Shown one piece after another: positions 5,883 through 24,914 of a DNA stretch of 64,000 bases. This stretch comes from Comamonas odontotermitis. Its GTDB lineage: Bacteria > Pseudomonadota > Gammaproteobacteria > Burkholderiales > Burkholderiaceae_C. Numbering within the stretch: the stretch's first letter is position 1; each line of letters starts with the position of its first letter. A program made the position numbers and the translations under genes. The notes beneath the pieces are model-generated. The model saw only the letters and a list, made by a program, of their open reading frames with translations, was not told where the DNA came from and did no database searches. The stretch is taken from assembly GCF_020080045.1 (NCBI RefSeq), contig NZ_CP083451.1, forward strand, positions 310,001 to 374,000, in the 5' to 3' direction.

Positions 5883-5903
5883 TCGTTCCTCATACTCCTT
5901 GGG

Positions 5904-5940
5904 AGGCCGGACGGGCGAAGAGCCTGGCCGGCTTTTTTTT
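5904..5940 (+). terminator. Rho-independent terminator after amtB
   Basis: AGGCCGG at 5904-5910 pairs with CCGGCTT at 5928-5934 (one G-T pair), followed by a run of T residues to 5940. It begins 22 bases after the amtB stop. Confidence 0.7.
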
Positions 5941-5990
5941 ACTTGCGCTGCTGGCGCTGCAGCTGTGCGGCACCGTGCCGAGGAAGGTGC

Positions 5991-9819: not shown

Positions 9820-9886
9820 GCGAATTTCCGCTGCTGCGCTTTCTTGAGCGGGCGACAGCCCTTGCAACTGCGGCTACCATCGGGCC

Positions 9887-11047
9887 ATGGACCAAGCTGT
9901 GGCTGCCTCTCATCACCCCACCGTGCTCGACTGGCAGGAGCGCGTTCGATCTGCCCATGCCCACAAGGCACCGCTGCGCATCCGTGGCGGCGGCAGCAAG
10001 GATTTTTACGGCGTTCGCCTGGGTGGCGAGCTGCTGGATACGCGCAGCTATGGCGGCATCGTCAGCTACGAGCCGAGCGAGCTGGTCGTCACCGTGCGCA
10101 GCGGCACGCCGCTGGCCGAGCTGGAACAGGTGCTGGCCGAACGTGGCCAATGCCTCGCGTTCGAGCCCCCGCACCTGGGTGCCGGTGTCACCCAGGCTAC
10201 AGTGGGCGGCATGGTGGCGGCAGGCCTGTCGGGGCCTGCGCGCGTGTCGGCCGGTGCCGTGCGCGACTACATCCTCGGCCTGTCGATGATCAACGGCGTG
10301 GGCGAACACCTCACCTTTGGCGGTCAGGTGATGAAGAACGTAGCGGGCTACGACGTATCGCGCCTCATGGCGGGCGCCTGGGGCACGCTGGGCCTGCTCA
10401 CCGACATCAGCATCAAGGTGCTGCCCATGCAGCGGGCCCAGGCCACCCTGTATTACGAATGCAGCCAGCAGCAGGCCATCGACATGCTGGCGGGCTGGCG
10501 TGCACAGCCGTTGCCGATCAACGCCAGCCTGTGGCAGTCGGACGGCAGCAGCGACAGCGGCCACCTGCTGGTGCGCCTGCGCGGCGCCATGGCCGCCGTC
10601 GAGGCCGCGCTCAGCCACATGGGCGGCACCATGCTCGACCACGCCCAGGCCGATGGCGCCTGGCTGGCCTGCCGCGAGCAGCAGCTGCCCTGGTTCACGC
10701 AGATGGAAGCCGACCACGCGCTGTGGCGGTTGTCGGTGCCGGCCACCACACCGGCGCTGCCCTGCACCGAACAGGCCATTCAACCGCTGATGGAGTGGGG
10801 CGGTGCGCTGCGCTGGGTGCAGGCACCCATGCAGCATGCCGCTGCCTTGCACGCCATGGCAGCCAGCGTAGGCGGCAGCGCGGTGTGCTTTCGGCCCGGC
10901 GAGGCCGTGCGCTGGGCGTCGTCCGACGATTTTGGCTACACGCCCACGTCCCCGGCGCTGCGCCAGGTGCAGCAGCGGCTCAAGCAGGCGTTTGATCCGA
11001 ACGGCATCTTCAACCCCGGCCGCCTGGGCGACTGGGCCATCAGCTGA
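9887..11047 (+). CDS. glcE: Glycolate oxidase subunit GlcE (FAD-binding)
   Basis: This 386-residue protein has the FAD_binding_4 fold seen in GlcE: RIRGGGSKDFYG binding the cofactor, GAGVTQATVGGMVAAGLSGP, and GQVMKNVAGYDVSRLMAGAWGTLG. The C-terminus ends in LKQAFDPNGIFNPGRLG, as usual for this family. With GlcD and GlcF it oxidises glycolate to glyoxylate and passes electrons to the membrane chain. The partner glcF follows after 27 bp, but the catalytic glcD subunit is not adjacent; a lactonase gene sits in its usual upstream position. Confidence 0.92.
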   Translation: MDQAVAASHHPTVLDWQERVRSAHAHKAPLRIRGGGSKDFYGVRLGGELLDTRSYGGIVSYEPSELVVTVRSGTPLAELEQVLAERGQCLAFEPPHLGAGVTQATVGGMVAAGLSGPARVSAGAVRDYILGLSMINGVGEHLTFGGQVMKNVAGYDVSRLMAGAWGTLGLLTDISIKVLPMQRAQATLYYECSQQQAIDMLAGWRAQPLPINASLWQSDGSSDSGHLLVRLRGAMAAVEAALSHMGGTMLDHAQADGAWLACREQQLPWFTQMEADHALWRLSVPATTPALPCTEQAIQPLMEWGGALRWVQAPMQHAAALHAMAASVGGSAVCFRPGEAVRWASSDDFGYTPTSPALRQVQQRLKQAFDPNGIFNPGRLGDWAIS

Positions 11048-11074
11048 ATCCGCTAATCCAGGTACCCCTGCACC

Positions 11075-12343
11075 ATGCAAACCCAATTAGCCCCCGAGTT
11101 CAAGAACACGCCCGAAGGCCAGGAGGCCGAAGCCATCCTGCGCAAGTGCGTGCACTGCGGCTTCTGCACCGCCACCTGCCCCACCTACCAATTGCTGGGC
11201 GACGAGCTGGACGGCCCGCGCGGCCGCATCTACCTGATCAAGCAGGTGCTCGAAGGCCAGGAGCCCACCCGCAAGACGCAGGAGCACCTGGACAGGTGCC
11301 TGACCTGCCGCAACTGCGAATCCACCTGCCCCAGCGGCGTGCAATACGGAAAGCTGCTGGACATCGGTCGCCACATCGTCGATGAGAAGGTGGAGCGCCC
11401 ACTGGGCGAGCGCGCCGCCCGCTGGGCGCTGCGCACAGGCATGACATCGAAGGCCTTTGGCGCGGCAGTGGCGCTGGGCCGCATCGCCAGGCCCCTGCTG
11501 CCTGGCGGCTTGAAGGACAAGCTGCCCAAGGCACCGAGCGCGGGCCGTTGGCCGTCGCGCGAGCATGACCGTAAGGTGATGATGCTGGCCGGCTGTGTGC
11601 AGCCTGCCATGTTGCCCAACATCAATGCCGCCACCGCGCGCGTGCTCGATGCCGTAGGCATCCAGACGCTGGTGACGCCCGCTGCCAAATGCTGCGGCGC
11701 CGTGCAGCAACACCTGAGCGACCCACAGGGCGCACTGGAGCAGGCGCGCGCCAATATCGACGCCTGGTGGCCCTGGGTGGCCAAACAGCAGATCGAAGCC
11801 ATCATCAGCACGGCTTCGGGCTGCGGTGTCATGGTCAAGGACTACGGCCATCTGCTGCGGCATGACAAGGAATACGCTGAGCGCGCCGTCACCATCAGCG
11901 CGCTGGCGCGCGATTTGAGCGAGCTGCTGCCCGCCATGCTGCCGGAGCTGGAGCAGCGCCTGCAAGGCAGGCTGCAGGTGCCCGATGCCCCGCTGGCCTA
12001 CCATCCGCCCTGCACCCTGCAGCACGGCCAGAAGCTGCGCGGTGGCGTCGAATCCAGCCTGCGGGCCCTGGGGTTCGATATTCGCGTCTCGCGCGTCGAA
12101 TCGCACCTGTGCTGTGGCTCGGCGGGCACCTACTCGCTGCTGCAGCCCGAAATTTCGCACCAGCTGCGCGATCGCAAGATCAATACCCTGAACGAGGCCT
12201 GCAGCCAGGAAACACCGCCTGCCGCCATTCTGTCGGCCAACATCGGCTGCATCACCCACCTGCAGGCGGGCACCGAGGTGCCGGTGCGCCACTGGATCGA
12301 GGTGATCGACGATGCGCTGCAGGCGGCGCAGACCGCTCGCTAA
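11075..12343 (+). CDS. glcF: Glycolate oxidase iron-sulfur subunit GlcF
   Basis: This 422-residue protein has two ferredoxin-like [4Fe-4S] motifs near the N-terminus (CVHCGFCTATCP and CLTCRNCESTCPSG). Two cysteine-rich CCG modules follow (AAKCCGAVQQH and HLCCGSAGTYSLLQPE). This is the GlcF architecture and length. It carries electrons from the flavin subunits of glycolate oxidase. It follows glcE directly and converges on the gamma-glutamyltransferase gene with a 70-bp gap that holds only a short CCCTTGCGAAGGG hairpin without a T run. Confidence 0.93.
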   Translation: MQTQLAPEFKNTPEGQEAEAILRKCVHCGFCTATCPTYQLLGDELDGPRGRIYLIKQVLEGQEPTRKTQEHLDRCLTCRNCESTCPSGVQYGKLLDIGRHIVDEKVERPLGERAARWALRTGMTSKAFGAAVALGRIARPLLPGGLKDKLPKAPSAGRWPSREHDRKVMMLAGCVQPAMLPNINAATARVLDAVGIQTLVTPAAKCCGAVQQHLSDPQGALEQARANIDAWWPWVAKQQIEAIISTASGCGVMVKDYGHLLRHDKEYAERAVTISALARDLSELLPAMLPELEQRLQGRLQVPDAPLAYHPPCTLQHGQKLRGGVESSLRALGFDIRVSRVESHLCCGSAGTYSLLQPEISHQLRDRKINTLNEACSQETPPAAILSANIGCITHLQAGTEVPVRHWIEVIDDALQAAQTAR

Positions 12344-12413
12344 CCAATAACCGTACCTGCGGTCGCCGCCTCAGGGCTTGGCCCTTGCGAAGGGGTCGCA
12401 AATACAGGTTGCG

Positions 12414-13886
12414 CTACTGCCGGTCAACGGCCAGGGCCATGCCGTCCTTGCGCGGGTCGGAGGCGCCGCAAAGCCGCCCATCCGGCAGACGGACGATGCA
12501 CTGCGCGCCGCCAAAATCGCTGCGCCCGCCCAGCTCACCCTCGCTGCCCGGTTCGCGGTAGCCTGCTGCGCGCAGGGCGGCGGTGACTGCTTCTGGCGTG
12601 CCGGCCTCCACGGCCAATACCCGCTGCCCTTCCAGTCGCCAGCGTGACCGGTTCAGTGCAGCCTGCGGGGCTTCGCCACCCGCCAGCATGCGGGCGAGCA
12701 ATTGCACCTGGCCTTGCGGCTGCATGGCGCCGCCCACCACGCCGATGACGGCGAGGAACTGGCCGTTACGGGTCACCGCGCCCGGCACCACTGTGTGGTA
12801 GGGGCGTTTGCCCGGCGCAGGCCCATTGATATGGCCGGGTTGCGCAAAGCCATGGCCCCGGTTTTGCAGCACAAAGCCACCTTCTGCCACGGCAAGGCCG
12901 GATCCAAAGCGTTTGAAGATGCTGCTCATCAAGGTGATGGCAAAGCCGTCGCCATCGACCACGGTGGTACAGACGGTGTTGCCCGCCGGGTCGGCCACGG
13001 TCTGCTTGGCATATTCCATGGCCGCTTCCATGGCCTGCACCATGCGCACGGCGTCTTCGGGCTGGTCGGCCTGTGGTGGCTGGCTCTCCAGGGCCTGCAG
13101 GGCATGGAGCACGGCCACGCCATGGGTGTTGGGCGGGCATTCATGCACCCGGGCGCCGCAGAAATCGGTGCTGACCGGCGTGCAGAAGTGGCCATGGTGC
13201 GCCGCAAAGTCGGCAGCGGTCAGCACGCCGCCGTGGTGCTGCATGGCGCGCTCGGCGGCCTGGGGAATGCGGCCCTGGTAGAAGGCGCTGGGCCCCTGCG
13301 CGGCAATCTCGTCCAGCAACCGGGCCAGTGCAGGGTTCTCAAAACGCTCACCGGCCTGGGGCGGGTGCTGCGCGCGGTAGAGTGCGGCGCTGGCGGGGTC
13401 GCTGGCGATCACCTGCTGAAACAGGGTCCACTCGCGTGCAGCCACGGGCGCCACCGCAAAGCCATGGCGCGCAGCATCGACGGCTGCATCGAACAGGCTG
13501 GCCCAGGGGCGCTTGCCATAGCGTTGGTGCAGATCCCACCAGCCCTGCACGGCGCCGGGCGTGGTGACGGAGAGCGGATGGCGCTCGGGAATCTTCTGGC
13601 CGGGCAAGGCCTCGACCATGGCTGCAGTCAGGCCGAGCGGTGCGCGGCCCGTGCCGTTATAGCTGATGGGCGCCTGCCCTGGGGGCACCAGCATGGCAAG
13701 CAGGTCGCCGCCCACGCCGGTGGCCATGGGCTCGACCACGCCAAGCACCGCATCGGCAGCAATGGCGGCGTCCACTGCCGAGCCGCCCGCCAGCAACTGG
13801 GCCTGCGCGGCCTGGGCGGCGAGCGGGTGGCCGGTCGCCACCATGGCGCCGCTGCCCACCACCCCCAGCAATGATTCGCCAGCCAT
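12414..13886 (-). CDS. Gamma-glutamyltransferase-family Ntn hydrolase
   Basis: This 490-residue protein is of the gamma-glutamyltranspeptidase family without an obvious signal peptide. Family marks include GSGAMVATGHPLAAQAA, GGSAVDAAIAADAVLGVVEPMATGVGGD and the autoprocessing site in GNTVCTTVVDGDG. There the Thr after Asn should become the N-terminal nucleophile of the small subunit. The large-subunit substrate loop (YNGTGRAP) is present. The start used lies one base after the permease stop, so both genes form an operon. Pairing with a permease under a GTATAC operator suggests a cytoplasmic hydrolase for an imported gamma-glutamyl or related amide rather than periplasmic glutathione turnover. 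That is inference. Confidence 0.88.
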   Translation of the reverse strand: MAGESLLGVVGSGAMVATGHPLAAQAAQAQLLAGGSAVDAAIAADAVLGVVEPMATGVGGDLLAMLVPPGQAPISYNGTGRAPLGLTAAMVEALPGQKIPERHPLSVTTPGAVQGWWDLHQRYGKRPWASLFDAAVDAARHGFAVAPVAAREWTLFQQVIASDPASAALYRAQHPPQAGERFENPALARLLDEIAAQGPSAFYQGRIPQAAERAMQHHGGVLTAADFAAHHGHFCTPVSTDFCGARVHECPPNTHGVAVLHALQALESQPPQADQPEDAVRMVQAMEAAMEYAKQTVADPAGNTVCTTVVDGDGFAITLMSSIFKRFGSGLAVAEGGFVLQNRGHGFAQPGHINGPAPGKRPYHTVVPGAVTRNGQFLAVIGVVGGAMQPQGQVQLLARMLAGGEAPQAALNRSRWRLEGQRVLAVEAGTPEAVTAALRAAGYREPGSEGELGGRSDFGGAQCIVRLPDGRLCGASDPRKDGMALAVDRQ

Positions 13887-13887
13887 C

Positions 13888-15426
13888 TCAGGCACCCCAG
13901 AGCGCCACGGCGGTGAACACGGCGGCAATCAGGCCCAGCACCACCGGGATGAGCAGGGCGCGGGCCAGCTCCAGCACATTGACCCGCGCAAACCCGGCCA
14001 CGGCGATCAGTGACGACCAGGCGATCAAGGTGCCGCCGCCCGTCCATACCGCGCCCATCTGGCCCAGGGCCGCCAGGGCAGAGACATCCATGCCCGAGGC
14101 CGGGCCCAGCGCGCCGGACAGGGTGCCGGTCAGCGGCAGGCCCGCGAAGCCGGAGCCGTCGATTCCGGTAATCATGCCCATGATCAGCACACCAAACGAC
14201 ACCAGCAACTGGCTGTCGGGAATCAGGTGCTGGCTCGCCTTCACCAGCTCGAACAGCAGGTCTGGCACCGGCTGACCGGGCGCAATGCCCAGGATGGGGC
14301 CTGCGGTCTCGTGCGAACCGATGAAGAAGAAGCCGGCAATCGGCAGCACTGCGCCCATGGCCTTGAAGGCAAAGACGAAGCCGTCGGTGATGTGGTCGGC
14401 GGCGGTGTCGAGCATTTTGCGAAAACCGTTACGTGCCGTGGTGGCCCAGATCATCAGCAAGGCCGCCACGCCGCCGATCAGCATGGCCGCATCGCCGCCT
14501 TTGAGGTCAGGTGCACCCTGGATGAACTTGGGGCCGAGCATGACCAGAATCACGATGAGGAAGGCGAGCGGTGTGATGACCGCAAACAATTTGGAGGCAC
14601 CCTCGGTACTCCTGGTCTTCTTGAGGGCTGCTTCCAGCTCCGAATTGGTGCCCAGGTCGGTGTCGTGTGCCGTGCCCTGGGCGATCTCGGCCTTGTTGAA
14701 GGTGCCACCGCCTTCCACCTGGGCGTTGATGCCGACGGGGTTCAGCTCCCAGCGCTCCAGCAAGGCGTTGTTGCCCGGCACGATGTATTTGCGGATCTTG
14801 AAGTACGACAGGAAGAGGGCGATCATGCCCACCACCCAGGACAGCAGCAGCGCCTTGTCGCCCACGGCCACCGCGCTGATGCCGCCTGCAGCCTTGGCGC
14901 TGATGCCGGGCGCCACGCCGATCACATAGTCGGACGACAGTGCCATGCCCTGGCCGGCAATGGCGATAGCCATGGCCCCTGCTATCGGTGGCAGGCCTGC
15001 GGCAATGGCAGCGGGCAGCAGCACGGCGGCCACCAGCGGCACGGCCGGGGTGGGCCAGAAGAACAGCGAGATCAGGTAGGTGACCAGTGCCAGTATGAAA
15101 TAGGCCGTGTGGCCGTTTTTCATGACTGCGCGAAACGGCTTGACCATGCGGATGTCCGAGCCCAGATCCTTGAGGGAATTGAGCAGCGCCGTCATCAGCG
15201 CAATGATCAGGAAGATGTTGAACAGCTCTTTGGCTGCAACCATGCTGGCACTGAAAATGCTACCAATGCCGGTGATGGCACTGCCGCTCCAGGCAAAGGC
15301 CACCACGATGGTGGCAATCAGCGAAGGCACCACCACGTTTGCGCGGAAGGCCATGGTAAGAATGATGACCAGCACCCCGGCCAGATAGGCCCAGTGCGCG
15401 GCACCGATTGAAACTGACGGATCCAT
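13888..15426 (-). CDS. Multi-pass permease (ion-transporter-superfamily-like)
   Basis: This 512-residue integral membrane protein has about 12-13 hydrophobic segments, for example HWAYLAGVLVIILTMAF and LIPVVLGLIAAVFTAVALW. A charged cytoplasmic loop lies near the middle (QGTAHDTDLGTNSELEAALKK). Two-fold glycine-rich re-entrant-looking segments (FFWPTPAVPLVAAVLLPAA; GMITGIDGSGFAGLPLTG) resemble organic-anion carriers of the ion transporter superfamily. I do not recognise a named subfamily. The ATG chosen has AAGGAG eight bases upstream. The GGT-family gene follows with a one-base gap, and the promoter region carries two GTATAC-type elements, so it probably imports the inducer or substrate of this regulon. 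Confidence 0.75.
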   Translation of the reverse strand: MDPSVSIGAAHWAYLAGVLVIILTMAFRANVVVPSLIATIVVAFAWSGSAITGIGSIFSASMVAAKELFNIFLIIALMTALLNSLKDLGSDIRMVKPFRAVMKNGHTAYFILALVTYLISLFFWPTPAVPLVAAVLLPAAIAAGLPPIAGAMAIAIAGQGMALSSDYVIGVAPGISAKAAGGISAVAVGDKALLLSWVVGMIALFLSYFKIRKYIVPGNNALLERWELNPVGINAQVEGGGTFNKAEIAQGTAHDTDLGTNSELEAALKKTRSTEGASKLFAVITPLAFLIVILVMLGPKFIQGAPDLKGGDAAMLIGGVAALLMIWATTARNGFRKMLDTAADHITDGFVFAFKAMGAVLPIAGFFFIGSHETAGPILGIAPGQPVPDLLFELVKASQHLIPDSQLLVSFGVLIMGMITGIDGSGFAGLPLTGTLSGALGPASGMDVSALAALGQMGAVWTGGGTLIAWSSLIAVAGFARVNVLELARALLIPVVLGLIAAVFTAVALWGA

Positions 15427-15797
15427 CGTGGCTACTCCTTGGTATGATTCAACAGCCAATTTGTATACTAAATACAAAAAAGCAAAAAATCATCAGGGAA
15501 TACCAGAGATGTTGCGCTGCATCATGGAATTAGCCCGGGTTTAAATGCTGTTTCTTGCATTCTTGGTATACAAAATTGAATGATTGGCACGGTGCTTCAT
15601 TCCACCCAAAGCCTTGTATGTGCCATGCCTTGTGATTTAGCTGAAAAATTTGTCTTGGAAATTTTCTTTAAAAACAATGCATTGATTGTTCATGCAAGCA
15701 AGCATGGATAGGAAGGGGTTATTGCCGTGGCCGTTGTTCTTGTATTCGTACATTGGATACACTAGGGTTAACACCAGGAACACAAGGGCATCGAGCT
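15427..15797. promoter_or_regulatory. AT-rich divergent control region with two GTATAC elements
   Basis: This 371-base gap has no convincing gene. TTGTATACTAAATACAA at 15461-15477 is an inverted repeat (TTGTAT/ATACAA, five-base spacer). TTGGTATACAAAA at 15563-15575 is a second related element. Both resemble FadR/VanR-type GntR operators and recur in the promoter region at 19.9-20.1 kb. On the other side, TTGTTC (15734-15739) and TACACT (15758-15763), 18 bases apart, could be a promoter for the small gene at 15798. Confidence 0.55.
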
Positions 15798-16296: not shown

Positions 16297-16950
16297 ATGC
16301 CCATTGCCACCGGAGACAAAAAAACAGGACTCAACCACTCGCCGCTGACGCAGCAGTTGGTGGAAGCGCTGCGCGAAAAGATCATGTCGGGCGAGCTGGC
16401 CTCGGGCGAGCGCCTGGTGGAGGAGCGCCTGTCTGAGGAATTTGCGGTATCGCGCATGCCCGTGCGCGAAGCGCTGCGCCAGCTGGCCTCCAGCGGCCTG
16501 GTGATCATCGAGCCGCGCCGGGGTGCTTCGGTGGCCCAATTCCATGGCGATCTGCTGCGTGAACTGGTCGAGGTGCGCGCCACGCTTGAAGCGCTCAATG
16601 CGCGCCTGGCCGCCAAGCGCCACGACCCCCAGCAGATTGCGGAGCTGGAGGCCCTGCTCGCCGAAGGCGTGAAAAACGCCCATTCCGGCGACGACGAGGT
16701 GCTGGCCACACTGAACCAGAAATTTCACTCCGCGCTGGGCAAGGTGGCAGCCAATTCGGTGCTGCAAGAGGTGATGCTGTCCCTGCGCGACCGCACTGCC
16801 GTGCTGTTTGCACCGCGCAGCCGCGAGCGTGCGCCGCAGAACTGGGAAGAGCATGCCGCCATCCTGCGCGCCGTGATCAAGGGCGACCCCGAGCTGGCGG
16901 GCCTGCTGGCCGCGCGCCATATCTACAACGCGGCGGGCATCGAGCCTTGA
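16297..16950 (+). CDS. GntR-family regulator, FadR/FCD subfamily
   Basis: This 217-residue regulator has an N-terminal winged helix (LTQQLVEALREKIMSGELASG, then LSEEFAVSRMPVREALRQLASSG) and a C-terminal FCD ligand domain. Metal-site histidines are visible in NQKFHSALG, WEEHAAILRAV and AARHIYNA. Such regulators usually repress neighbouring catabolic genes until a small organic acid binds. GTATAC palindromes in front of the permease and the diiron-oxidase groups are plausible targets. The start is the ATG at 16297, which gives the normal family length; longer readings in the same frame exist. A terminator follows within 65 bases. Confidence 0.9.
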   Translation: MPIATGDKKTGLNHSPLTQQLVEALREKIMSGELASGERLVEERLSEEFAVSRMPVREALRQLASSGLVIIEPRRGASVAQFHGDLLRELVEVRATLEALNARLAAKRHDPQQIAELEALLAEGVKNAHSGDDEVLATLNQKFHSALGKVAANSVLQEVMLSLRDRTAVLFAPRSRERAPQNWEEHAAILRAVIKGDPELAGLLAARHIYNAAGIEP

Positions 16951-16987
16951 TATAGTTTTGTAGAAAACTGGGCCTTGGCGCCCACCC

Positions 16988-17012
16988 AGAGCGCGCTAGG
17001 CGCTCTTTTTTT
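16988..17012 (+). terminator. Terminator shared by gntR and the convergent cyclodeaminase gene
   Basis: AGAGCGC (16988-16994) and GCGCTCT (17000-17006) form a seven-pair stem with a GCTAG loop, followed by T to 17012. The stop codon of the minus-strand gene lies in the loop region. The T run followed by GATAGTTCTGG resembles the end of the dispersed hairpin element after alr, so this may be a diverged copy. Confidence 0.7.
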
Positions 17013-17925
17013 GATAGTTCTGGTGGTTTTGGTAGGCAAGACCGGCCAGCGCGATGTCTTCCAGACCCACGCCTACGGCCTTGTAGAGGCGAATGCCCGC
17101 GCCGCCGCGCGCGCTGGCCTGCTTGCCGCAGACGATATCGCCCAGCTCCACCACCTTGCTGGCCACCTGCAGCGCCGGGTCTGCCAGCACCAGGTCGCCC
17201 GCCTCGACCAGCGCCTGCTTTTTCCACTCCACGGCGATCTGTGAAGCGCGCGCCAGGGCGGCGTCGTCGAGCTCCCGCGTATGCGGCAGGCTGGAGCCAA
17301 TCGCCGCCACAAAGGCGCCTTCTGCAATGCGCTCCCCGGCAAACAGCGGGTCCTTGGAGCGCGAGGCGGTGACGACGATCTCGGCATCGGCCACGCCATC
17401 GGTATCGTGCACGCGGGTGACCTGGGCTCCGGTCAGGTGCGCGAGGCGCTCAGCCAGGTCGTCTGCTGCATAAGGGTCGAACACCGCTATGCGCCGCAGG
17501 CCCAGGCGGCGCACCAGTTGCTGCGCATGGGCCATGCCCTGCACACCCGCGCCGCACAGAAACAGCTGCTGCGGTTGGGCAGGAGCCAGGTGCTCGGCTG
17601 CCAGCACCGTGGTTGCGGCGGTGCGCAGGCGGGTGATGGCATTGGCCTCCATCGTGGCAAGAGGCGCGCCGGTCTCGGTGGAGAACAGCAGGATCACAAA
17701 ATTGAACTGGCCCGCGATCGTGGTGTAGACCTTGGCGCCGGTCACGCCCAGCGAGGGAATCACCGCCCCCAGCGTAGAGAGCTTGACGCCTCCGGCATCG
17801 GTGCGTTCGCGCGCCTGCATCGCAGCCTCGCCCTTGCCAAAGGCGGTAAAGGCGGTGCGCATGGCGGCAAGGGCTTCGTCGGCGGACACCAGTGTGTCCA
17901 CCATGGCGTCGGTAATGTGCAGCAT
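16996..17925 (-). CDS. Ornithine cyclodeaminase / mu-crystallin family protein
   Basis: This 309-residue protein has the family's Rossmann glycine motif in LFLCGAGVQGMAHAQQL and the substrate-binding region LSTLGAVIPSLGVTGAKVYTT. A conserved MEANAITRLRTAATTVLA segment is also present. Members act as NAD-dependent ornithine or lysine cyclodeaminases, ketimine reductases or alanine-type dehydrogenases, and sequence does not separate these reliably. It lies downstream of the ferredoxin-tauE group on the same strand, separated from tauE by a 169-bp inverted-repeat element. Its last dozen residues (YQNHQNYQKKSA) come from the terminator/repeat region and look like recent additions. Confidence 0.85.
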   Translation of the reverse strand: MLHITDAMVDTLVSADEALAAMRTAFTAFGKGEAAMQARERTDAGGVKLSTLGAVIPSLGVTGAKVYTTIAGQFNFVILLFSTETGAPLATMEANAITRLRTAATTVLAAEHLAPAQPQQLFLCGAGVQGMAHAQQLVRRLGLRRIAVFDPYAADDLAERLAHLTGAQVTRVHDTDGVADAEIVVTASRSKDPLFAGERIAEGAFVAAIGSSLPHTRELDDAALARASQIAVEWKKQALVEAGDLVLADPALQVASKVVELGDIVCGKQASARGGAGIRLYKAVGVGLEDIALAGLAYQNHQNYQKKSA

Positions 17926-17984
17926 GGTGTGTATGGTTCAGAGTGGGAAAGAGGTGGGGTTGGCAGGCGTCTGGAGGTGCGTTC

Positions 17985-18153
17985 CTAGGGAACCTCTGCA
18001 AAACTCCCTGCCGTGGTCTGAACGCGGTCTCGGGCGATCCGCTGCGTTATCTTTCTCGGCAATAGCTACGGCTATTGCCTTCAAAAGACGCCTTGCGCCT
18101 CATCCCGATCCGCGTCCATTCCATCTGGCGAGGGTTTTGCAGAGGCTCCCTAG
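17985..18153. mobile_element. MITE-like inverted-repeat element (169 bp)
   Basis: The ends match as inverted repeats: CTAGGGAACCTCTGCAAAAC on the left, and CTAGGGAGCCTCTGCAAAAC when the right end is read in reverse. The centre holds a perfect nine-pair hairpin, GGCAATAGC-TACG-GCTATTGCC (18058-18079), and the two halves are imperfectly palindromic over most of their length. TA at both borders fits a TA target duplication. There is no coding capacity, so this is a non-autonomous element. It separates tauE from the cyclodeaminase gene, and the tauE stop codon TAG falls in its right border. Confidence 0.75.
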
Positions 18154-18896
18154 AGCCAGACCTTGAGCAGAATGACGCAGGCGCTTACCGCAGCCGTGCC
18201 TAACAGCCATTGGCGAATGGCGGTCTTGGAGACATGGCGCGCCAGCCGGTTGGATGCGAAAAATCCCACCAGCATCCACGGCAGCAGCACGGCGAAGTAC
18301 AGCCACTCCTGCGCGCCCATCTTGCCGACCCAGGCGAGAGCCGTGATCGAGACGATGGTGCCTGCGAAAAACACCACGCCCAGCGTGGAGCGCATGGTGG
18401 GTGGCGCCAGGTGCTGCATCGCAATGGCAAACGGCGGGCCACCCGCTGCCGTTATCGTGCCCATGATGCCGCTGGCGACCCCGGCAATCGACAGGTTGGC
18501 CGTTGTGGGTTGCACCCGCCAGCCGATGGTGCTGAGGGTGACTGCTATCAAAATAAGAACGGCAAACAAGATGGAGAGGGCGCTGGCGCTGAAATACACC
18601 AACAGGCCCGTCGCCGCAAAGGTGCCGATGACGCGGCCTGCCAGCGTGGCAGCCGCCACATGGCCGTTGAGCGCATCGCGCTCGCGCAGGTAGGCCAGCA
18701 GGGCCAGCGGCGCGCCCACGGCCAGCAGCGGGCCGGGCACCAGCTCCGGAAAGAAAATGGCAGCCAGCGGCGCGCAGAACATCGCGTAGCCCAGGCCGCC
18801 CACGCCCTGCATGGCGGCACCGGCCAGCACCATCAGGCCCATGGCCAGGTAGCGGCCTGCGCCCAGCTGCTCGGCAAAGCTTGCCCAGGCCATCAT
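18150..18896 (-). CDS. TauE/SafE-family membrane exporter
   Basis: This 248-residue protein has about eight hydrophobic segments and the family's two-fold layout. An N-terminal GAAMQGVGGLGYAMFCAPLAAIFFPELVPGPLL and an internal GVASGIMGTITAAGGPPFAI repeat are visible. TauE/SafE proteins are linked to export of sulfite, sulfonates and some other anions, so the name does not fix the substrate. The start overlaps the ferredoxin stop as ATGA, showing translational coupling to the electron-transfer genes. The stop codon lies in the border of a MITE-like element, so the original C-terminus may have been altered. Confidence 0.85.
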   Translation of the reverse strand: MMAWASFAEQLGAGRYLAMGLMVLAGAAMQGVGGLGYAMFCAPLAAIFFPELVPGPLLAVGAPLALLAYLRERDALNGHVAAATLAGRVIGTFAATGLLVYFSASALSILFAVLILIAVTLSTIGWRVQPTTANLSIAGVASGIMGTITAAGGPPFAIAMQHLAPPTMRSTLGVVFFAGTIVSITALAWVGKMGAQEWLYFAVLLPWMLVGFFASNRLARHVSKTAIRQWLLGTAAVSACVILLKVWL

Positions 18897-19183
18897 GCGG
18901 GCAGCTGCCAGCTCACGCTGATGTCGCCATTCACAAAGGTCTGGCAGGCCAGCCGGTGGCCTTGGGCGAACTGCTCTTCAGTGAAGTGCTTGCGCTCCTT
19001 GGGCTTGACGGCGTCGGTGTTGGCCAGGCCTTCGACGATCCTGCACTTGCAGGTGCCGCACAGGCCGCCGCCGCATTTGAAGGGGATGCCGCCTTTTTCG
19101 CGCAGCGATACGCGCAGCAGATTGCTGTTGTCCGGGGCCTCGACGGCCTTGTTGTCATTGGTGACGAAGGTGATGGTGGGCAT
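18893..19183 (-). CDS. [2Fe-2S] ferredoxin (second of two)
   Basis: This 96-residue plant-type ferredoxin has the four cluster cysteines in CGGGLCGTCKC and a later LACQT. It also has the usual FTEEQFAQGHRLACQ helix before the last Cys. It lies downstream of a small unknown gene and a first ferredoxin, and overlaps the tauE-type gene by four bases. Divergent transcription from a diiron-oxidase operon suggests it supplies electrons to that enzyme. Its exact partner among the two ferredoxins is unknown. Confidence 0.92.
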   Translation of the reverse strand: MPTITFVTNDNKAVEAPDNSNLLRVSLREKGGIPFKCGGGLCGTCKCRIVEGLANTDAVKPKERKHFTEEQFAQGHRLACQTFVNGDISVSWQLPA

Positions 19184-19199
19184 GTGTGGATTCCGGCAG

Positions 19200-19520
19200 T
19201 CAGGCAGAGGTTGCGGCTTGCGGCAGGGGAACGGAGATCAGCTGGGCGTCGAGCGAGCCGAAGTTGCACAGGTGCTGCAACTCGGCGTGCGCCTGTGCAA
19301 GCGTGTCAAAACGCTCCAGAAACTTGGAGGGCACGGCGTTGACGGTGCCCGAGGCATCCTCTTCAATCACCTGCACCTTGGTCTCGCGCAGGAGTCTGCC
19401 GAGCACGAACTGGGCCAGCACGCGGCCATAGAACTGGTAGTTCCAGGCTTCCAGCAATTCAATGTCGGCGCTTGGCACGGTGCGGTACTGGCCGGGCTTG
19501 CTGGTGAGGATGACAAACAT
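19200..19520 (-). CDS. Conserved-looking small protein between two ferredoxin genes
   Basis: This 106-residue soluble protein has no family I recognise. It begins MFVILTSKPGQYRT, has an aromatic stretch (EAWNYQFYGRVLAQFVLGRLL) and a mixed alpha/beta pattern, and contains a single Cys (HLCNFG). It therefore does not bind an iron-sulfur cluster by itself. GAGGAG precedes the ATG at eight bases. Gaps of 17 and 16 bp to the flanking ferredoxin genes indicate a true operon member. It could be a small subunit, chaperone or coupling protein for the diiron oxidase, but nothing in the sequence proves this. Confidence 0.75.
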   Translation of the reverse strand: MFVILTSKPGQYRTVPSADIELLEAWNYQFYGRVLAQFVLGRLLRETKVQVIEEDASGTVNAVPSKFLERFDTLAQAHAELQHLCNFGSLDAQLISVPLPQAATSA

Positions 19521-19537
19521 GGTGCGGGCTCCTCGGT

Positions 19538-19861
19538 TCAGGCGGCAGATACGGCAGGGGCGGCAGCCAGCGGGATCTGCTCCAGCTCCAGGTCATGTTC
19601 CAGCCACAGCTGGCAGGCCAGGCGGTAGCCCTGGTCCAGACGGTCGCCGAGCTGTTTCTTTTCCTTCCAGTTCGGGGGCGGCAGGTTTTCGGCGCCCGCA
19701 ATGATCCTGCAGGCGCAGGTGGCGCACTTGCCCATGCCGCACTGGTAGGCCAGGTGGGGATACGGGTACTGCTTGATGCCTGCGCGCACCACCAGGTTGG
19801 AGCCGGCCTTGACCTCGTCCTGGAAGGTCTGGCCGTTCTTGTGAAACGTGATCAGGGGCAT
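19538..19861 (-). CDS. [2Fe-2S] ferredoxin (first of two)
   Basis: This 107-residue plant-type ferredoxin has cluster cysteines in YQCGMGKCATCACR and a later RLACQLW. It is the first gene of the minus-strand group, with its ATG about 26 bases from a GTATAC double palindrome. It differs clearly from the second ferredoxin (CGMGKCATC against CGGGLCGTC), so the two are not a recent duplication and may have distinct electron partners. A third ferredoxin domain occurs in the reductase encoded on the other strand. Confidence 0.92.
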   Translation of the reverse strand: MPLITFHKNGQTFQDEVKAGSNLVVRAGIKQYPYPHLAYQCGMGKCATCACRIIAGAENLPPPNWKEKKQLGDRLDQGYRLACQLWLEHDLELEQIPLAAAPAVSAA

Positions 19862-20165
19862 GGGACATCCTCGTTAGTTCTATTGCGTATACTGTATACA
19901 AATAAGAAATTTTGAGCAATAGGGATAACGTGAGGAGCGCATTGGCGCAAGCGTTCTGCTGGAGTGTCTGTTTTTCATTCTGCAGAGGAGAAATACAGAA
20001 TTCCAGTGAGGTGATCGGGGTGAATTGGCTGTGCCAGTCAGGGAAACTACCGGGGTGAGAAATTTCTGGAAATGGTTGACCTGGTATGTTGTATACAGTA
20101 TTCTAACTCCGTCGCTTGGCTCGGTTTGATTCAGCGACGCACCCACCATCCATAGAGGAGTCGCC
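19862..20165. promoter_or_regulatory. Divergent control region with GTATAC operators
   Basis: This 304-base gap lies between the ferredoxin group and the diiron-oxidase operon. A double palindrome GTATACTGTATAC (19887-19899) inside TTGCGTATACTGTATACAAA lies close to the ferredoxin start. TTGTATACAG (20089-20098) lies 68 bases before the oxidase start. These share the GTATAC core with two sites before the permease at 15.4-15.6 kb. No gene is evident between them. Confidence 0.6.
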
Positions 20166-20903
20166 ATGACGAACAAACTGCTGAACCGCGACGAATTCCG
20201 CGCCGCACTGGAAAACGCCATCAAGGGCAAGAGCGCCAACAAGGCCCCTTTCAGCGTGGCCTGGGCCACCGGTCGCCTGAGCCGCGAGCATCTGGCTCGC
20301 TGGGCCGAGAACCATTACCACTACGTCGGCCCATTTGCCGATTACCTGGGCTACCTGTATGCCCGCACGCCAGACCACATGACCGAGGCCAAGGACTTCC
20401 TGCTGGCCAACATGTATGAAGAGGAAATCGGTGGCGACCGCCATACCGATCTGCTGATCCGCTTTGCCGAGGCCTGTGGCACCACCCGCGAGCGCGTGGT
20501 CAACCCCGACAACATGTCGCCCACTACCCGTGGCCTGCAGTCATGGTGCTATGCCGTGGCGATGCGCGAAGACCCGGTAGTGGCGGTTGCGGGCCTCGTG
20601 GTCGGCCTCGAATCGCAGGTGCCCTCCATCTACCGCAAGCAGACCCCGACGCTGCGCGAGAAATACGGCTTCTCCGACGAGGATGTCGAGTTCTTCGACC
20701 TGCACATCGTCTCGGACGAAATCCATGGCGAGCGTGGCTACCAGATCGTGCTGGAGCACGCCAATACGCCGGAGCTGCAAGCCAAGTGCCTGCGCATCTG
20801 CGAAATCGGCGCCCAGATGCGCTTGCTCTACACCACGGCGCTCTACCACGACTACGTGGCCAAGGATCTGCAGATTCCCGCAGAAGAGCTGCTGGCTGCC
20901 TGA
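20166..20903 (+). CDS. Heme-oxygenase-like diiron oxidase (HDO)
   Basis: This 245-residue all-helical protein of the TenA/PqqC/CADD fold carries what looks like a complete HDO metal site: E86 and H93 (EEEIGGDRH), E149 (GLES), then H180, D184 and H187 (DLHIVSDEIH). The spacing E-x6-H, then E, then H-x3-D-x2-H is that of CADD and BesC/UndA-type enzymes, and is not expected in thiaminase TenA or PqqC. Such enzymes use O2 and reducing power to oxidise or fragment amino or fatty acids. Ferredoxins, a reductase and an aldehyde dehydrogenase nearby fit an oxidative step yielding an aldehyde. GAGGAG precedes the ATG. The substrate is unknown. Confidence 0.85.
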   Translation: MTNKLLNRDEFRAALENAIKGKSANKAPFSVAWATGRLSREHLARWAENHYHYVGPFADYLGYLYARTPDHMTEAKDFLLANMYEEEIGGDRHTDLLIRFAEACGTTRERVVNPDNMSPTTRGLQSWCYAVAMREDPVVAVAGLVVGLESQVPSIYRKQTPTLREKYGFSDEDVEFFDLHIVSDEIHGERGYQIVLEHANTPELQAKCLRICEIGAQMRLLYTTALYHDYVAKDLQIPAEELLAA

Positions 20904-21065
20904 TTCGTCTCTTTCTCCATCTGACTGCAACCCTTCCGGCCGCGCAGCACCTGCGCGTGCCCGGCGGATGGAGAGACGGCATGCACCTTGGCCATCGGCG
21001 GGCCCAGGCCCGAACTCCACTGCCTGCAGTGGCCCACTTCTCCACATCACACAAAAACAACCACC

Positions 21066-22523
21066 ATGGCTGACACAGTCCACACGTTTTTGAACTACAT
21101 CGACGGCGCCTGGGTGCCTTGCCTTCTGGGCAGCACCTTTGACAACCTCAACCCTGCCGATACCCGTGATGTGGTCGGCCGCTTCCAGGCTTCGGGCCCC
21201 GCCGACGCCGAAGCTGCCGTTCAGGCTGCGCAAAAGGCCTTTGATGGCTGGCGCAGGACGCCGATTGGCAAACGCGCCAAGATCCTCAATGACGCGGCGG
21301 CCTACCTGGAGCAGAACGCCGTGCAGTTCGCCAAGGACCTGACGCGCGAGGAAGGCAAGCAGTTTGCCCAGGCCAAGGACGAGTTTCTGCGCAGCGCGCA
21401 GACCTTCCGCTTCTACGCCACCGAAGGCCAGACTTACGGCGGCGAGACCTACCCGCAGGACGACCCGAACATGCATGTGTTCAGCCACCGCGAGCCGCTG
21501 GGCGTGGTCACGGTCATCTCGCCGTGGAACTTTCCCGCCTCGATTCCTGCGCGCAAGCTGGCTCCGGCGCTGATCACCGGCAATACCGTGGTGTTCAAGC
21601 CTTCGTCCGATGCGCCGCTCTCGGGCATCCGCCTGGTGGAAGCGCTGGAGAAGGCGGGCATTCCTGCAGGCGTGGTCAACTGCGTCACCGGGCGCGCTGG
21701 CGAGGTGGGGCCGGTCATCACCAATTCCAGCAATATCCGCGCGATCTCGTTCACGGGCTCGACCACGGCGGGCGCGCAGATCCACCGCACCGTGCACCTG
21801 ACGACCCGCCTGCAAATGGAGCTGGGCGGCAAGAACCCGCTGCTCGTGATGGAAGACGCCGATCTGGACCTGGCCGTTGACCTGGCGGTCAAGGGCGGTT
21901 TCTCGCTCACCGGCCAGGCCTGCACCGGCACCAGCCGCATTCTGGTGGTGCCCAGCGTCAAGGCGGCCTTTACCGAGAAACTGCTCGCCCGCGTGGCGGC
22001 GCTCAAGATCGGTGACGGCATGGAGTCGGGCATGGACCTGGGGCCGCTGGCGACCGAAAAGCAGTTGCAGACCGTACTCCGGTACATCGCCATCGGCAAG
22101 GGCGAAGCGCGCCTGCTGTGCGGCGGCGATCGCCTGACGGGCCCGGCGTTCGAGCATGGCTACTACGTCTCGCCTGCCGTGTTCACCGATGTGAAAAACA
22201 GCATGCGCATCGCCCAGGAAGAAATCTTCGGCCCGGTGCTGGCCATCATCGAGGTGGCCGATTTCAATGAAGCCCTGGCCACGGCCAATGACACCGAATA
22301 CGGCCTGTCGGCCAGCATCGTGACGAACAACCCGCGCTATATGCACGTGTTCACGAACGAGATCCAGTCCGGCACCGTCAAGATCAACCGCACCACCACC
22401 GGCAACCTGGTGAATGCGCCCTTTGGCGGGCTGAAGAACTCCAGCACATCGACCTTCCGCGAGTCGGGCCGTGCCGGGCTGGAGTTCTTCACCCAGGTCA
22501 AGACCGTGTACCGCGGCGTCTGA
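21066..22523 (+). CDS. NAD(P)-dependent aldehyde dehydrogenase
   Basis: This 485-residue ALDH-superfamily enzyme has the active Cys in TGQACTGTSRI, the general-base Glu in MELGGKNP and the oxyanion/cofactor segments VISPWNFPAS and SFTGSTTAG. The overall sequence resembles 2-oxoglutarate-semialdehyde dehydrogenases (start NYIDGAWV, C-terminal TFRESGRAGLEFFTQVKTVY). It could therefore act on an omega-semialdehyde acid. It is the second gene of the oxidase operon, 162 bp after the HDO, and would oxidise the aldehyde released there. The ATG has only a weak ribosome site (AAAAAC region). Confidence 0.92.
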   Translation: MADTVHTFLNYIDGAWVPCLLGSTFDNLNPADTRDVVGRFQASGPADAEAAVQAAQKAFDGWRRTPIGKRAKILNDAAAYLEQNAVQFAKDLTREEGKQFAQAKDEFLRSAQTFRFYATEGQTYGGETYPQDDPNMHVFSHREPLGVVTVISPWNFPASIPARKLAPALITGNTVVFKPSSDAPLSGIRLVEALEKAGIPAGVVNCVTGRAGEVGPVITNSSNIRAISFTGSTTAGAQIHRTVHLTTRLQMELGGKNPLLVMEDADLDLAVDLAVKGGFSLTGQACTGTSRILVVPSVKAAFTEKLLARVAALKIGDGMESGMDLGPLATEKQLQTVLRYIAIGKGEARLLCGGDRLTGPAFEHGYYVSPAVFTDVKNSMRIAQEEIFGPVLAIIEVADFNEALATANDTEYGLSASIVTNNPRYMHVFTNEIQSGTVKINRTTTGNLVNAPFGGLKNSSTSTFRESGRAGLEFFTQVKTVYRGV

Positions 22524-22560
22524 GCGGCGCGACAGCCATCCCAAGAAAAGGAATACACCC

Positions 22561-23037
22561 ATGAAATCCGCACTGAAACTCGAACTGGAAGAAGCCCGCG
22601 TGATGGCCCGCGCAGCCCTGGCCAAGGCCCAGGAGATCGGCGTGCCCGAATCCGTCTGCATCACCGATGAAGGCGGCTTTCCGCTGGTGCTCGAACGCAT
22701 GGACGGCGCCCGTGTCACCGGCCCGCAGATTGCGTGGAACAAGGCCTTCACCGCTGCCGGCCACAAGCGCTCGACGCATCTGTTCAACACGGCACCCAAC
22801 GGCCCCGCCCTGCCGGGCAACGAAGCCTTCGGCATTCAGTGGAGCTTTGAAGGCAAGTTTGCGGTCTTTGTCGGGGGCTACCCCATCGTCGTCAATGGCG
22901 AAGTGATCGGCGGCGTGGGCCTGTCGGGCGGCAACGGCGAGCAGGACACCGCCTGCGGTGTGGCGGCCTTGCAGGCGCTGCGCGAGCACCTGGGCGCCGC
23001 TGCCGACGTGGTGGTACAGGCTGATATCAAAAAGTGA
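22561..23037 (+). CDS. GlcG/HbpS-family (DUF336) protein
   Basis: This 158-residue protein has the GlcG/HbpS fold. The pattern VCITDEGGFPLVLERMDGA, ITWN-like QIAWNKAFTAA, and GGYPIVVNGEVIGGVGLSGGNGEQD is typical. Relatives bind haem or corrinoids, or occur as small accessory proteins in glycolate, propanediol and aromatic catabolic clusters. AAAGGA precedes the ATG. The last codons and stop (ATATCAAAAAGTGA) run into a dispersed hairpin element, so the natural C-terminus may have been trimmed or extended by that repeat. A role in the HDO pathway is inferred from position only. Confidence 0.85.
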   Translation: MKSALKLELEEARVMARAALAKAQEIGVPESVCITDEGGFPLVLERMDGARVTGPQIAWNKAFTAAGHKRSTHLFNTAPNGPALPGNEAFGIQWSFEGKFAVFVGGYPIVVNGEVIGGVGLSGGNGEQDTACGVAALQALREHLGAAADVVVQADIKK

Positions 23038-23080
23038 GCTAATAGCGCTTGCCAGTTGGGCGCTAGAGCCATATTGAACC
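23024..23080. repeat. Dispersed hairpin element after the GlcG-like gene
   Basis: ATATCAAAAAGTGAGCTAAT followed by AGCGCTTGCCAGTTGGGCGC and TAGAGCC is a copy of the AGCT-GCGC-AGAGGCC family. It contains the stop codon of the GlcG-like gene and fills most of the gap to the reductase gene. Confidence 0.6.
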
Positions 23081-23100
23081 AATGGAGCGCGGGGTGTGCA

Positions 23101-24132
23101 ATGAACTACCACGTACTGTGGCTGCAGACGCAGCAATCGTTTGAGGTGGGCGCGGACGAGTCGGTGCTGGACGCCGCCACGCGCCAGGGCGTGAGCCTGC
23201 CGCACGACTGCACCTTTGGCGGCTGCGGCACCTGTCGCATGAAGGTGGAAGAGGGCCGTTTTGCCTATGCCGACGGCGAATTGCCGCTGGCCATGGCGGA
23301 GGAAGAGCATGCGCAGGGCTACGCACTGGCCTGCCAGGCGCGTGCGCAGTCGGACCTGGTCATCAGCGTGGAAACCGGCCCGGCCTGCTCGCCGCCGACT
23401 ATGCTGCGCGCCACGGTGGCCGAGCTGCGCATGCACACGCCCGATATCTACCACCTGGCGCTCGACCTTCCCGAAGGCCATGGTGTGCAGTATGCGGCCG
23501 GGCAGTACCTCAACATCTGCCTAGCTGATGGCGAGCACCGCAGCTTTTCGATGGCGACGCCGCCGCAGGGCAACCGCGTCACGCTGCAGATACGCAAGAT
23601 TGCGGGTGGCCGCTTTACCGAAGGCGTGCTGGCCAGCGCCCAGCCCGGCGATGTGTTCGATGTAGAGCTGCCGCACGGCACCTTCTGCTACCACGCAAGC
23701 GACTACCAGCCCATGGTGTTTGCCGCCACCGGCACCGGCTTTGCGCCGATCAAGGCCATACTGGAGTCGCTGCTGGACGATGAGGATTGCCCGCCTATCC
23801 ACTTCTACTGGGGCATGCGCTGTGAAGCCGATCTGTACCTCCTGGATGAAATCGAGGCCTGGGCGGGCCGCCTGTACGAGTTCACGTTTGTACCCGTGCT
23901 CTCGCGGGCATCGGACCGTTGGACGGGTCGCCGGGGCTATGTGCAGGATGCGATTGCCGAAGATTTCGGCGACCTGTCCGAGCATTCGATCTACCTGTGC
24001 GGATCGCCCCACATGATCGCTGACGCCAAGGCCGTGGTGGCGCTGTCGGGGGCGGCCATGGACAGGATATACAGCGACAGCTTCATCTTCCAGAACGAAG
24101 CGGCCACGGTGGCTGAAATGAACGAGGAGTGA
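23101..24132 (+). CDS. [2Fe-2S] ferredoxin-FAD/NAD(P) oxidoreductase
   Basis: This 343-residue fusion has an N-terminal [2Fe-2S] domain (CTFGGCGTCRMK, later LACQ) followed by a ferredoxin-NADP reductase-type module. That module shows RSFSMATPP for FAD, ATGTGFAPIKAI for the nucleotide, and YLCGSPHMI near the C-terminus. It would draw electrons from NAD(P)H and deliver them through its own or a separate ferredoxin, as reductases of multicomponent oxygenases do. In this cluster the diiron oxidase is the obvious acceptor. The SDR gene starts three bases after its stop, so they are coupled. Confidence 0.92.
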   Translation: MNYHVLWLQTQQSFEVGADESVLDAATRQGVSLPHDCTFGGCGTCRMKVEEGRFAYADGELPLAMAEEEHAQGYALACQARAQSDLVISVETGPACSPPTMLRATVAELRMHTPDIYHLALDLPEGHGVQYAAGQYLNICLADGEHRSFSMATPPQGNRVTLQIRKIAGGRFTEGVLASAQPGDVFDVELPHGTFCYHASDYQPMVFAATGTGFAPIKAILESLLDDEDCPPIHFYWGMRCEADLYLLDEIEAWAGRLYEFTFVPVLSRASDRWTGRRGYVQDAIAEDFGDLSEHSIYLCGSPHMIADAKAVVALSGAAMDRIYSDSFIFQNEAATVAEMNEE

Positions 24133-24134
24133 GC

Positions 24135-24914
24135 ATGGATCTGGGACTGAGCGGTAAATCCGCACTGGTATGGGGCGGCAGCAAGGGCATGGGCTATGCG
24201 GCAGCGCGCCGCCTTGCGTTGGAAGGGGCGGATGTGGTGATTGCTGCGCGCACCGAGGCCACCTTGCAGGGCGCTGCGCAGGCGCTGTCGCAGGATTGCG
24301 GGCGCACCGTGCGCTACGTGGTGGCAGACATCACCAGCAACGCCGGGCGCGAAGCCGCGCTGGCAGCCTGCCCGCAGCCCGATATCCTGGTGAACAACTC
24401 CGACGGCTACCCGCCCGGGGATTTTCGCGAATGGACGCAGGAGACCTGGCACCAGGCGCTGGACATGATGATGGTCGGCCCCATCGACATGATCCGCCGC
24501 GTGGTTGATGGCATGCAGGAGCGCCGCTATGGCCGCATCATCAACATCGTCTCGCGCAGCGTGAAGGCCGCGCATGCGGAGCTGGGCCTGTCCAACGGCG
24601 CGCGTTCGGGCCTGGTGGGCTTCGTGGCGGGCCTGGCGCGCCAGACGGTGCGCCACAACGTCACCATTAATAACGTGCTGCCCGGTGCATTCGATACCGA
24701 TGCCCAGGCGCGCCACATCGACAAGCTCGCCCGGCAGACCGGAAAACCAGCGGAAGAGGTGCGCAGAAGCCGCGAGGCCGGCAACCCCGCAGGCCGCTTT
24801 GGCAGGCCCGACGAGGTGGGCGCGCTGATTGCCTACCTCGCATCCGCCCATACCGGGTACATCACCGGCCAAAGCTGGCTGATCGACGGCGGAGAGTACC
24901 CGGGCACGTATTGA
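24135..24914 (+). CDS. SDR-family protein with non-canonical active site
   Basis: This 259-residue Rossmann protein has the overall SDR layout, but the glycine motif is GGSKGMG (residues 14-20). The catalytic YxxxK is replaced: aligned from Ser140, the sequence is S153-N-G-A-R157 (LGLSNGARSGL). This resembles the BKR-like SDR group described as lacking a perfect catalytic tetrad. It may use a different mechanism or bind rather than reduce. The terminal region (TGYITGQSWLIDGGEYPG) is normal. GAGGAG precedes this ATG by five bases; an overlapping GTG six bases earlier is less likely. It is the last gene of the HDO operon. Confidence 0.85.
   Translation: MDLGLSGKSALVWGGSKGMGYAAARRLALEGADVVIAARTEATLQGAAQALSQDCGRTVRYVVADITSNAGREAALAACPQPDILVNNSDGYPPGDFREWTQETWHQALDMMMVGPIDMIRRVVDGMQERRYGRIINIVSRSVKAAHAELGLSNGARSGLVGFVAGLARQTVRHNVTINNVLPGAFDTDAQARHIDKLARQTGKPAEEVRRSREAGNPAGRFGRPDEVGALIAYLASAHTGYITGQSWLIDGGEYPGTY

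Follow-up and report, generated by a model that had tools for sequence, protein, structure and literature searches.

The 64,000-nucleotide stretch of Comamonas odontotermitis DNA analysed here (the window; contig NZ_CP083451.1, positions 310,001 to 374,000) holds at 16297..24914 two divergent gene groups built around a gene for a predicted heme-oxygenase-like diiron oxygenase (HDO). On the plus strand the order is HDO, aldehyde dehydrogenase (ALDH), HbpS-like protein, ferredoxin-FAD-NAD reductase (FNR) and an atypical short-chain dehydrogenase/reductase (SDR); on the minus strand it is ferredoxin A, a 106-residue protein (P106), ferredoxin B, a TauE/SafE-family membrane protein (TauE) and an enzyme of the ornithine cyclodeaminase (OCD)/mu-crystallin family (Table 1). 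Both groups start at a single promoter region, the TauE gene start overlaps the ferredoxin B stop, and a neighbouring GntR regulator gene is oriented toward the OCD end. This is the arrangement that an earlier, sequence-only reading had described, and every gene it named was recovered in the window from the open reading frame list, Pfam and NCBIfam. In addition, a carrier gene and the gene of a gamma-glutamyltransferase (GGT)-family hydrolase, which begins one base past the carrier stop codon, belong with the cluster despite their position outside 16297..24914.

The extent of the conserved unit was defined from related loci. A pattern scan of a collection of 84,980 species gave 510 matches; 468 of these code for a relative by tblastn (E 1e-3), in excess of chance, and 80 were kept; loci from plasmid records and further genomes extended the set to 101 core HDO loci (HDO more than 75% identical), representing 90 unique HDO sequences, 81 of which lie in loci of at least 15 kb and serve for the presence counts. 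Presence means a tblastn match to the window protein above 60 bits (150 for the SDR; E 1e-20 for the carrier and the GGT-family hydrolase) anywhere in the locus, the gene calls of the relatives come from a homology-based script, and the ligand, cysteine, gene-order and identity comparisons used the redundant locus set. The 81 loci comprise 22 from Cupriavidus, 22 from Achromobacter, 7 from Bradyrhizobium and the remainder from sources that include 12 further named genera (15 named genera). GntR, ferredoxin A, P106, ferredoxin B and HbpS are each found in all 81, the carrier in 77, the ALDH in 76 and the FNR in 68. TauE (52/81), OCD (45/81) and the SDR (11/81) are optional and are read as lineage-specific additions; the GGT-family hydrolase occurs in 8/81. 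What is conserved is thus another unit than the one drawn in the sequence-only reading: the HDO, ferredoxins, HbpS and GntR do form its core, the SDR, OCD and TauE are dispensable, and the unit was not complete as drawn, since P106 and the carrier had been overlooked.

The core genes also travel together. Ferredoxin A, P106 and ferredoxin B are contiguous and in unchanged order in 98/98 loci, and the HDO is the best conserved of the parts measured, with a median identity to the relatives of 88%, followed by the ALDH (70%), the carrier (63%), the FNR (55%) and P106 (48%), medians that include the own-genome locus and duplicates. The HDO (E 1e-30) was found in 5 of 398 phylum-wide genomes, the own one included; its identity to the query is at least 85% in four of them and 46% in the fifth, and P106 (E 1e-4) is present in exactly those four of the 398. 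Similarly, all five of 300 genomes of the order that encode the carrier (E 1e-20) also encode the HDO, a comparison made in this direction only. In one locus, also from Comamonas odontotermitis (L005), the HDO is 100% and the other cluster proteins are 96-100% identical to those of the window. Cupriavidus basilensis KF708 has, within a single locus (L011), two carrier genes as well as two HDO genes (5897-6619 and 10001-10723), both of the latter 87.6% identical to the query. A locus from a metagenome-assembled genome (MAG; L048) has no ALDH and carries a carboxylesterase (12348-13874) that lies downstream of HDO and HbpS and shares their orientation.

An operator-like site connects the carrier with the oxygenase genes. 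The site ATACTGTATACA occurs twice without mismatch between the HDO and ferredoxin A, and the window holds 6 sites of this type with at most two mismatches against 0.55 expected. Such sites were counted in the 90 loci of the redundant set that span at least 9 kb, two of which repeat others. They lie upstream of the HDO in 84/90 loci, whereas stretches drawn at random from these loci give 4.8%; for the carrier the count is 64/85 (control 5.2%) and for GntR 34/90 (control 4.3%). Counts are 16/89 for ferredoxin A (control 3.8%), which often lies away from the promoter, 9/48 for OCD (control 5.3%) and 5/84 for the ALDH (control 4.9%). Since the site is common to the upstream regions of the HDO and the carrier, it suggests that the two genes belong to one regulon, of which GntR, by presumed binding to these sites, is probably the repressor. 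The whole genome has 13 sites with at most one mismatch, the two perfect ones being the copies at 19889 and 20090; for 7 of the other 11, inspected by eye, a partner gene was not recognised.

The HDO belongs to its superfamily by its Pfam domain, and its three-histidine/three-carboxylate (3H/3C) set E86, H93, E149, H180, D184 and H187 is invariant both in the 101 core loci (90 unique HDOs) and in 24 more distant loci, hereafter cousins (18 unique), in agreement with the earlier claim that all six metal ligands are present. The ligands were mapped from CADD through sequence alignment, with residue numbers that we take to be those of the CADD metal ligands. Because this set is invariant, a thiaminase-type enzyme appears unlikely. 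The HDO matches 6 PDB sequences at E 0.001, and its closest solved relatives are PqqC and the CADD-type p-aminobenzoate (pABA) synthases (CADD 73.5 bits, NePabS 67.5 bits), the latter sharing the six metal ligands. The match to the NCBIfam CADD subfamily (TIGR04305) reaches 97.8 bits, however, below the cut-off of 200, and the HDO operon, unlike these enzymes, has an electron chain. Furthermore, Tyr27 and Lys152 of CADD, to which the available text of PMC11965152 assigns sacrificial roles, align with Ser30 and Gln159 of the HDO (Lys158 is adjacent) in the alignments to CADD and NePabS, and a self-sacrificing pABA synthase was rejected because these two residues are unmatched. The metal-free PqqC shares a match to the PQQC/TenA family (PF03070, 38.1 bits), but the HDO has the full metal-ligand set and scores 49.4 bits against the PqqC model TIGR02111, whose cut-off is 240, and on this score PqqC identity was rejected. 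BesC, UndA, SznF, AetD and PolF have the 3H/3C or 3H/4C diiron HDO fold, as far as the accessible part of PMC13108848 describes them, but are biosynthetic, and none is among the 6 PDB matches. A second Haem_oxygenas_2 match in the own genome (G000:C1:881234-881605, 39.8 bits) lies inside a 655-residue open frame.

The apparent dedicated electron chain, which together with an ALDH in the same locus had been pointed out before, is borne out by the relatives. The FNR, an NAD(P)H/flavin/[2Fe-2S] reductase encoded near the HDO in the window and present in 68/81 loci, is predicted to support HDO turnover, the cluster cysteines of ferredoxin A (C41, C46, C49, C83) and ferredoxin B (C37, C42, C45, C80) are invariant, and those of the FNR are all kept. 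Against the NCBIfam model of BenC the FNR scores 207 bits (cut-off 430). P106 has no Pfam match above noise and no PDB sequence match, its AlphaFold2 (AF2) model has a pLDDT of 90.1, and no relation to known coupling proteins was detected. As P106 is strictly co-located with the ferredoxins, we propose that it may act as a coupling or docking subunit. By analogy, the system would resemble the multicomponent diiron and Rieske oxygenases, which have a reductase of the MmoC/BenC architecture and, next to their electron carriers, a small subunit without redox function, whereas here the terminal oxygenase would be an HDO and P106 is, as far as detection goes, unrelated to their coupling proteins. 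A precedent is MboA/MboB of mangotoxin synthesis, an HDO with an NAD(P)H/flavin/Fe2S2 reductase, which the authors of PMC13185094 consider to be perhaps the first case of an HDO paired with a dedicated redox partner. That system, compared by description and not by sequence, is biosynthetic and acts on a peptide, and its description, in the available part of the same source, does not mention separate ferredoxins, P106, a carrier, an ALDH or GntR.

Among the remaining proteins, the ALDH finds its best NCBIfam model in alpha-ketoglutaric semialdehyde dehydrogenase (NF042993), with 549.5 bits against a cut-off of 770. The solved relatives of HbpS include 2a2l, whose molecule is named 'unknown' (78.1 bits), NahX (61.2) and EfgA (59.9). 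The SDR carries SNGAR at the expected position of YxxxK, which we take to be the usual motif of its family, and was rejected as a core enzyme on its occurrence in the relatives. TauE has the PF01925 domain and no NCBIfam match, and sulfite transport by it is putative. The carrier matches no Pfam family, and its predicted structure has the elevator-type fold of the ion-transporter (IT) superfamily, to which several non-sulfur carriers fit as well as, or better than, sulfur ones. The GGT-family hydrolase belongs to the PF01019 superfamily but scores 267.5 bits against the gamma-glutamyltransferase equivalog TIGR00066 (cut-off 357.85), and in place of the NNQMDDF and GSPGGS of E. coli GGT it reads QNRGHGF and GVVGGA. 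It is nearer to 2nlz, deposited as a cephalosporin acylase, and in the alignment to 2nlz its Thr304 is paired with a Thr that is presumably catalytic in self-cleavage; the alignment to E. coli GGT begins two residues later.

The cousins offer a view of what the HDO keeps when its surroundings change. Fourteen such loci were fetched, all from one family, of which 29 of 75 genomes carry a cousin HDO, and their HDOs are 42-48% identical to the query. GntR and HbpS are kept in 14/14, the ferredoxins, P106, ALDH and FNR are found in none of the 14, and the carrier is absent from all 10 that span at least 15 kb. In 11/14 a clustered protein of about 275 residues lies near the HDO, and a Rieske domain was found in 4/4 members tested. 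It looks as if the electron carriers had been exchanged, with HDO, HbpS and GntR retained. Among the gene calls of the related loci, c22, labelled by eye as a cytochrome, had no Pfam match. Locus L123 has two cousin HDO genes in tandem (9068-9772 and 9867-10571), whose identities to the query are 42% and 45% and which may encode a heteromer.

Taken together, the locus is best read as an inducible catabolic regulon, with a rough probability of 0.6, in which an NAD(P)H-driven multicomponent HDO oxygenase would make, from a small organic anion, the aldehyde on which the ALDH acts. GntR, acting on the ATACTGTATACA-type sites, whose conservation is observed directly, would repress import by the IT-fold carrier together with the oxygenase genes until an effector relieves it. 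Electrons from NAD(P)H would pass through the FNR to ferredoxins A and B and on to the HDO, with P106 assisting the transfer; the HDO would activate O2 and oxidise the anion, perhaps an amide- or ester-linked one, beside a heteroatom or C-C bond; and the ALDH would turn the aldehyde into a central acid. Amide hydrolases, GGT-like here and amidase or isochorismatase elsewhere, may release the substrate or act on the product. Several observations weigh against this reading. No sequence family found points to a substrate, and a regulated cluster could also detoxify or synthesise. The 81 loci are not independent, because 22 Cupriavidus and 22 Achromobacter loci are among them, and the FNR is missing from 13/81 and the ALDH from 5/81, and therefore neither is strictly required nearby. 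The per-gene site counts overlap, because the HDO and a divergent carrier or ferredoxin A gene can share one site in a common promoter region, and the window GntR gene has no site with at most two mismatches before it, as 34/90 relatives do. Finally, 3/14 cousin loci have no clustered Rieske-type neighbour, and in one of these, L121, the HDO neighbour has no Pfam match.

Three proposals, oxidative C-N cleavage, desulfonation and fragmentation, are specific forms of the catabolic reading and overlap with it. In the C-N cleavage form, whose substrate would be the anion of an amide or lactam, the HDO would hydroxylate the carbon beside the amide nitrogen, and the hemiaminal would fall apart into an aldehyde for the ALDH and a primary amide for the hydrolase, one reaction that would explain why both recur together. 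In 8/8 relatives that have it, the GGT-like gene lies 3' of the carrier and in the same orientation, and its motifs are, as noted, nearer the acylase deposit than E. coli GGT; another GGT-family protein occurs in L102, and 17 loci, from Cupriavidus (15) and Paraburkholderia (2), have an amidase cluster (one member tested), beside a major facilitator superfamily (MFS) carrier cluster in 18 (one member tested). A cluster resembling the isochorismatase RutB (one member tested) is shared by 4 loci, which belong to Candidimonas, Caldimonas and Variovorax, and some Achromobacter loci have an M20 hydrolase. However, these are common genes, and the recurrence of hydrolases, like that of TauE and SorA, is a raw count that carries no background rate. 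No amide hydrolase was recognised in the Achromobacter or named Bradyrhizobium operons, whose neighbours are only partly annotated, and the hydrolases of the Caballeronia, Pseudolabrys and MAG L048 loci are esterase-like instead; we regard this version as doubtful. Rather improbable is desulfonation, in which the HDO would hydroxylate a sulfonate-bearing carbon to give an aldehyde and sulfite, which TauE would export or SorA oxidise: 15 Achromobacter loci do have a SorA-type sulfite dehydrogenase cluster in the vicinity of the HDO (for example L012 8117-9349; one member tested), but it is confined to this genus, variable within it, on the opposite strand and outside the operon, while TauE is absent from 29/81 loci, including all 7 named Bradyrhizobium ones, TauE/SafE proteins are diverse, and several non-sulfur carriers fit the carrier fold at least equally well. 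EfgA senses formaldehyde and BesC releases it, and an amino-acid fragmentation like that of BesC, with HbpS sensing or handling the formaldehyde as EfgA does, would suit the universal presence of HbpS in core and cousin loci and the preference of known HDOs for amino or fatty acids. Yet HbpS scores higher against 2a2l than against EfgA and about equally against NahX, no formaldehyde dehydrogenase is in the conserved set, and the ALDH resembles semialdehyde dehydrogenases, which makes fragmentation very improbable.

A role in biosynthesis or in protection, by detoxification or under stress, instead of catabolism would accord with the literature on the family: about a dozen HDOs are characterised and linked to biosynthesis, according to the accessible part of a 2026 review (PMC13108848), and those studied make small molecules, to which DtpC adds a protective one, as far as PMC13232832 is available. 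We nevertheless regard such a role as unlikely here, given that the carrier shares the operator-like site, an ALDH is present, and neither a peptide ligase nor a synthetase is among the conserved genes. Degradation of homarine was rejected, as none of the titles listed by the literature search concerns such an operon.

Catabolism would be an unusual job for the HDO family. Among the papers listed from the open-licence literature, outside which most subscription journals lie, neither a catabolic HDO nor the present gene set was found, and to that extent the sequence-only reading was right that no named pathway fits. Tentatively, at a little less than even odds, the system may be the first catabolic multicomponent oxygenase of the HDO fold, with P106 as a new coupling subunit and an importer family outside Pfam, enabling many proteobacteria to grow on a common, unrecognised environmental compound. 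If so, it would provide an HDO with its natural reductants encoded alongside and extend the fold into catabolism. The set is widespread and strictly conserved and brings along an apparent electron chain, a regulator and a predicted importer, P106 and the carrier are two protein families that Pfam lacks, and the conserved operator-like site would offer a direct route to the inducer, hence to the substrate.

Table 1. Coordinates of the cluster genes and operator-like sites in the window
Feature	Position	Strand	Family match or location
GGT-family hydrolase (acylase-like)	12414..13886	-	PF01019 365 bits (cut-off 27)
Carrier, 512 residues, predicted IT-superfamily fold	13888..15426	-	no Pfam family
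Operator-like site TGTATTTAGTATACA	15462..15476	-	upstream of carrier; 2 mismatches over 12-base core
GntR/FCD regulator	16297..16950	+	Pfam GntR 73.7 bits, FCD 92.9 bits
OCD/mu-crystallin-family enzyme (accessory)	16996..17925	-	PF02423 137.8 bits; closest solved relative 3hdj, 318 bits
TauE/SafE-family membrane protein (accessory)	18150..18896	-	PF01925 64.4 bits (cut-off 32.6)
Ferredoxin B, [2Fe-2S] type	18893..19183	-	PF00111 53.8 bits
P106 core protein	19200..19520	-	between ferredoxins A and B
Ferredoxin A, [2Fe-2S] type	19538..19861	-	PF00111 40.0 bits
Operator-like site, perfect copy 1	19889..19900	+	HDO/ferredoxin A divergent promoter region
Operator-like site, perfect copy 2	20090..20101	-	HDO/ferredoxin A divergent promoter region
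HDO (proposed terminal oxygenase)	20166..20903	+	PF14518 131.3 bits (cut-off 28.9)
ALDH (ATG at 21066)	21066..22523	+	PF00171 541 bits
HbpS-like protein	22561..23037	+	PF03928 119.3 bits
FNR, BenC/MmoC architecture	23101..24132	+	PF00111 + PF00970 + PF00175
Atypical SDR (accessory)	24129..24914	+	PF13561 133 bits

Between TauE and OCD, at 17985-18150, lies an inverted-repeat element of about 166 bp that resembles a miniature inverted-repeat transposable element; the genome contains 21 stretches that match it, of which 7, itself included, are nearly complete at 83-100% identity. Adjoining the regulon, at 10166-12343, are genes presumably resembling those of glycolate oxidase subunits, with FAD-oxidase matches that are weak and one gene for a CCG/Fe-S protein, and this Fe-S protein has cluster members in 5 loci, the window among them.

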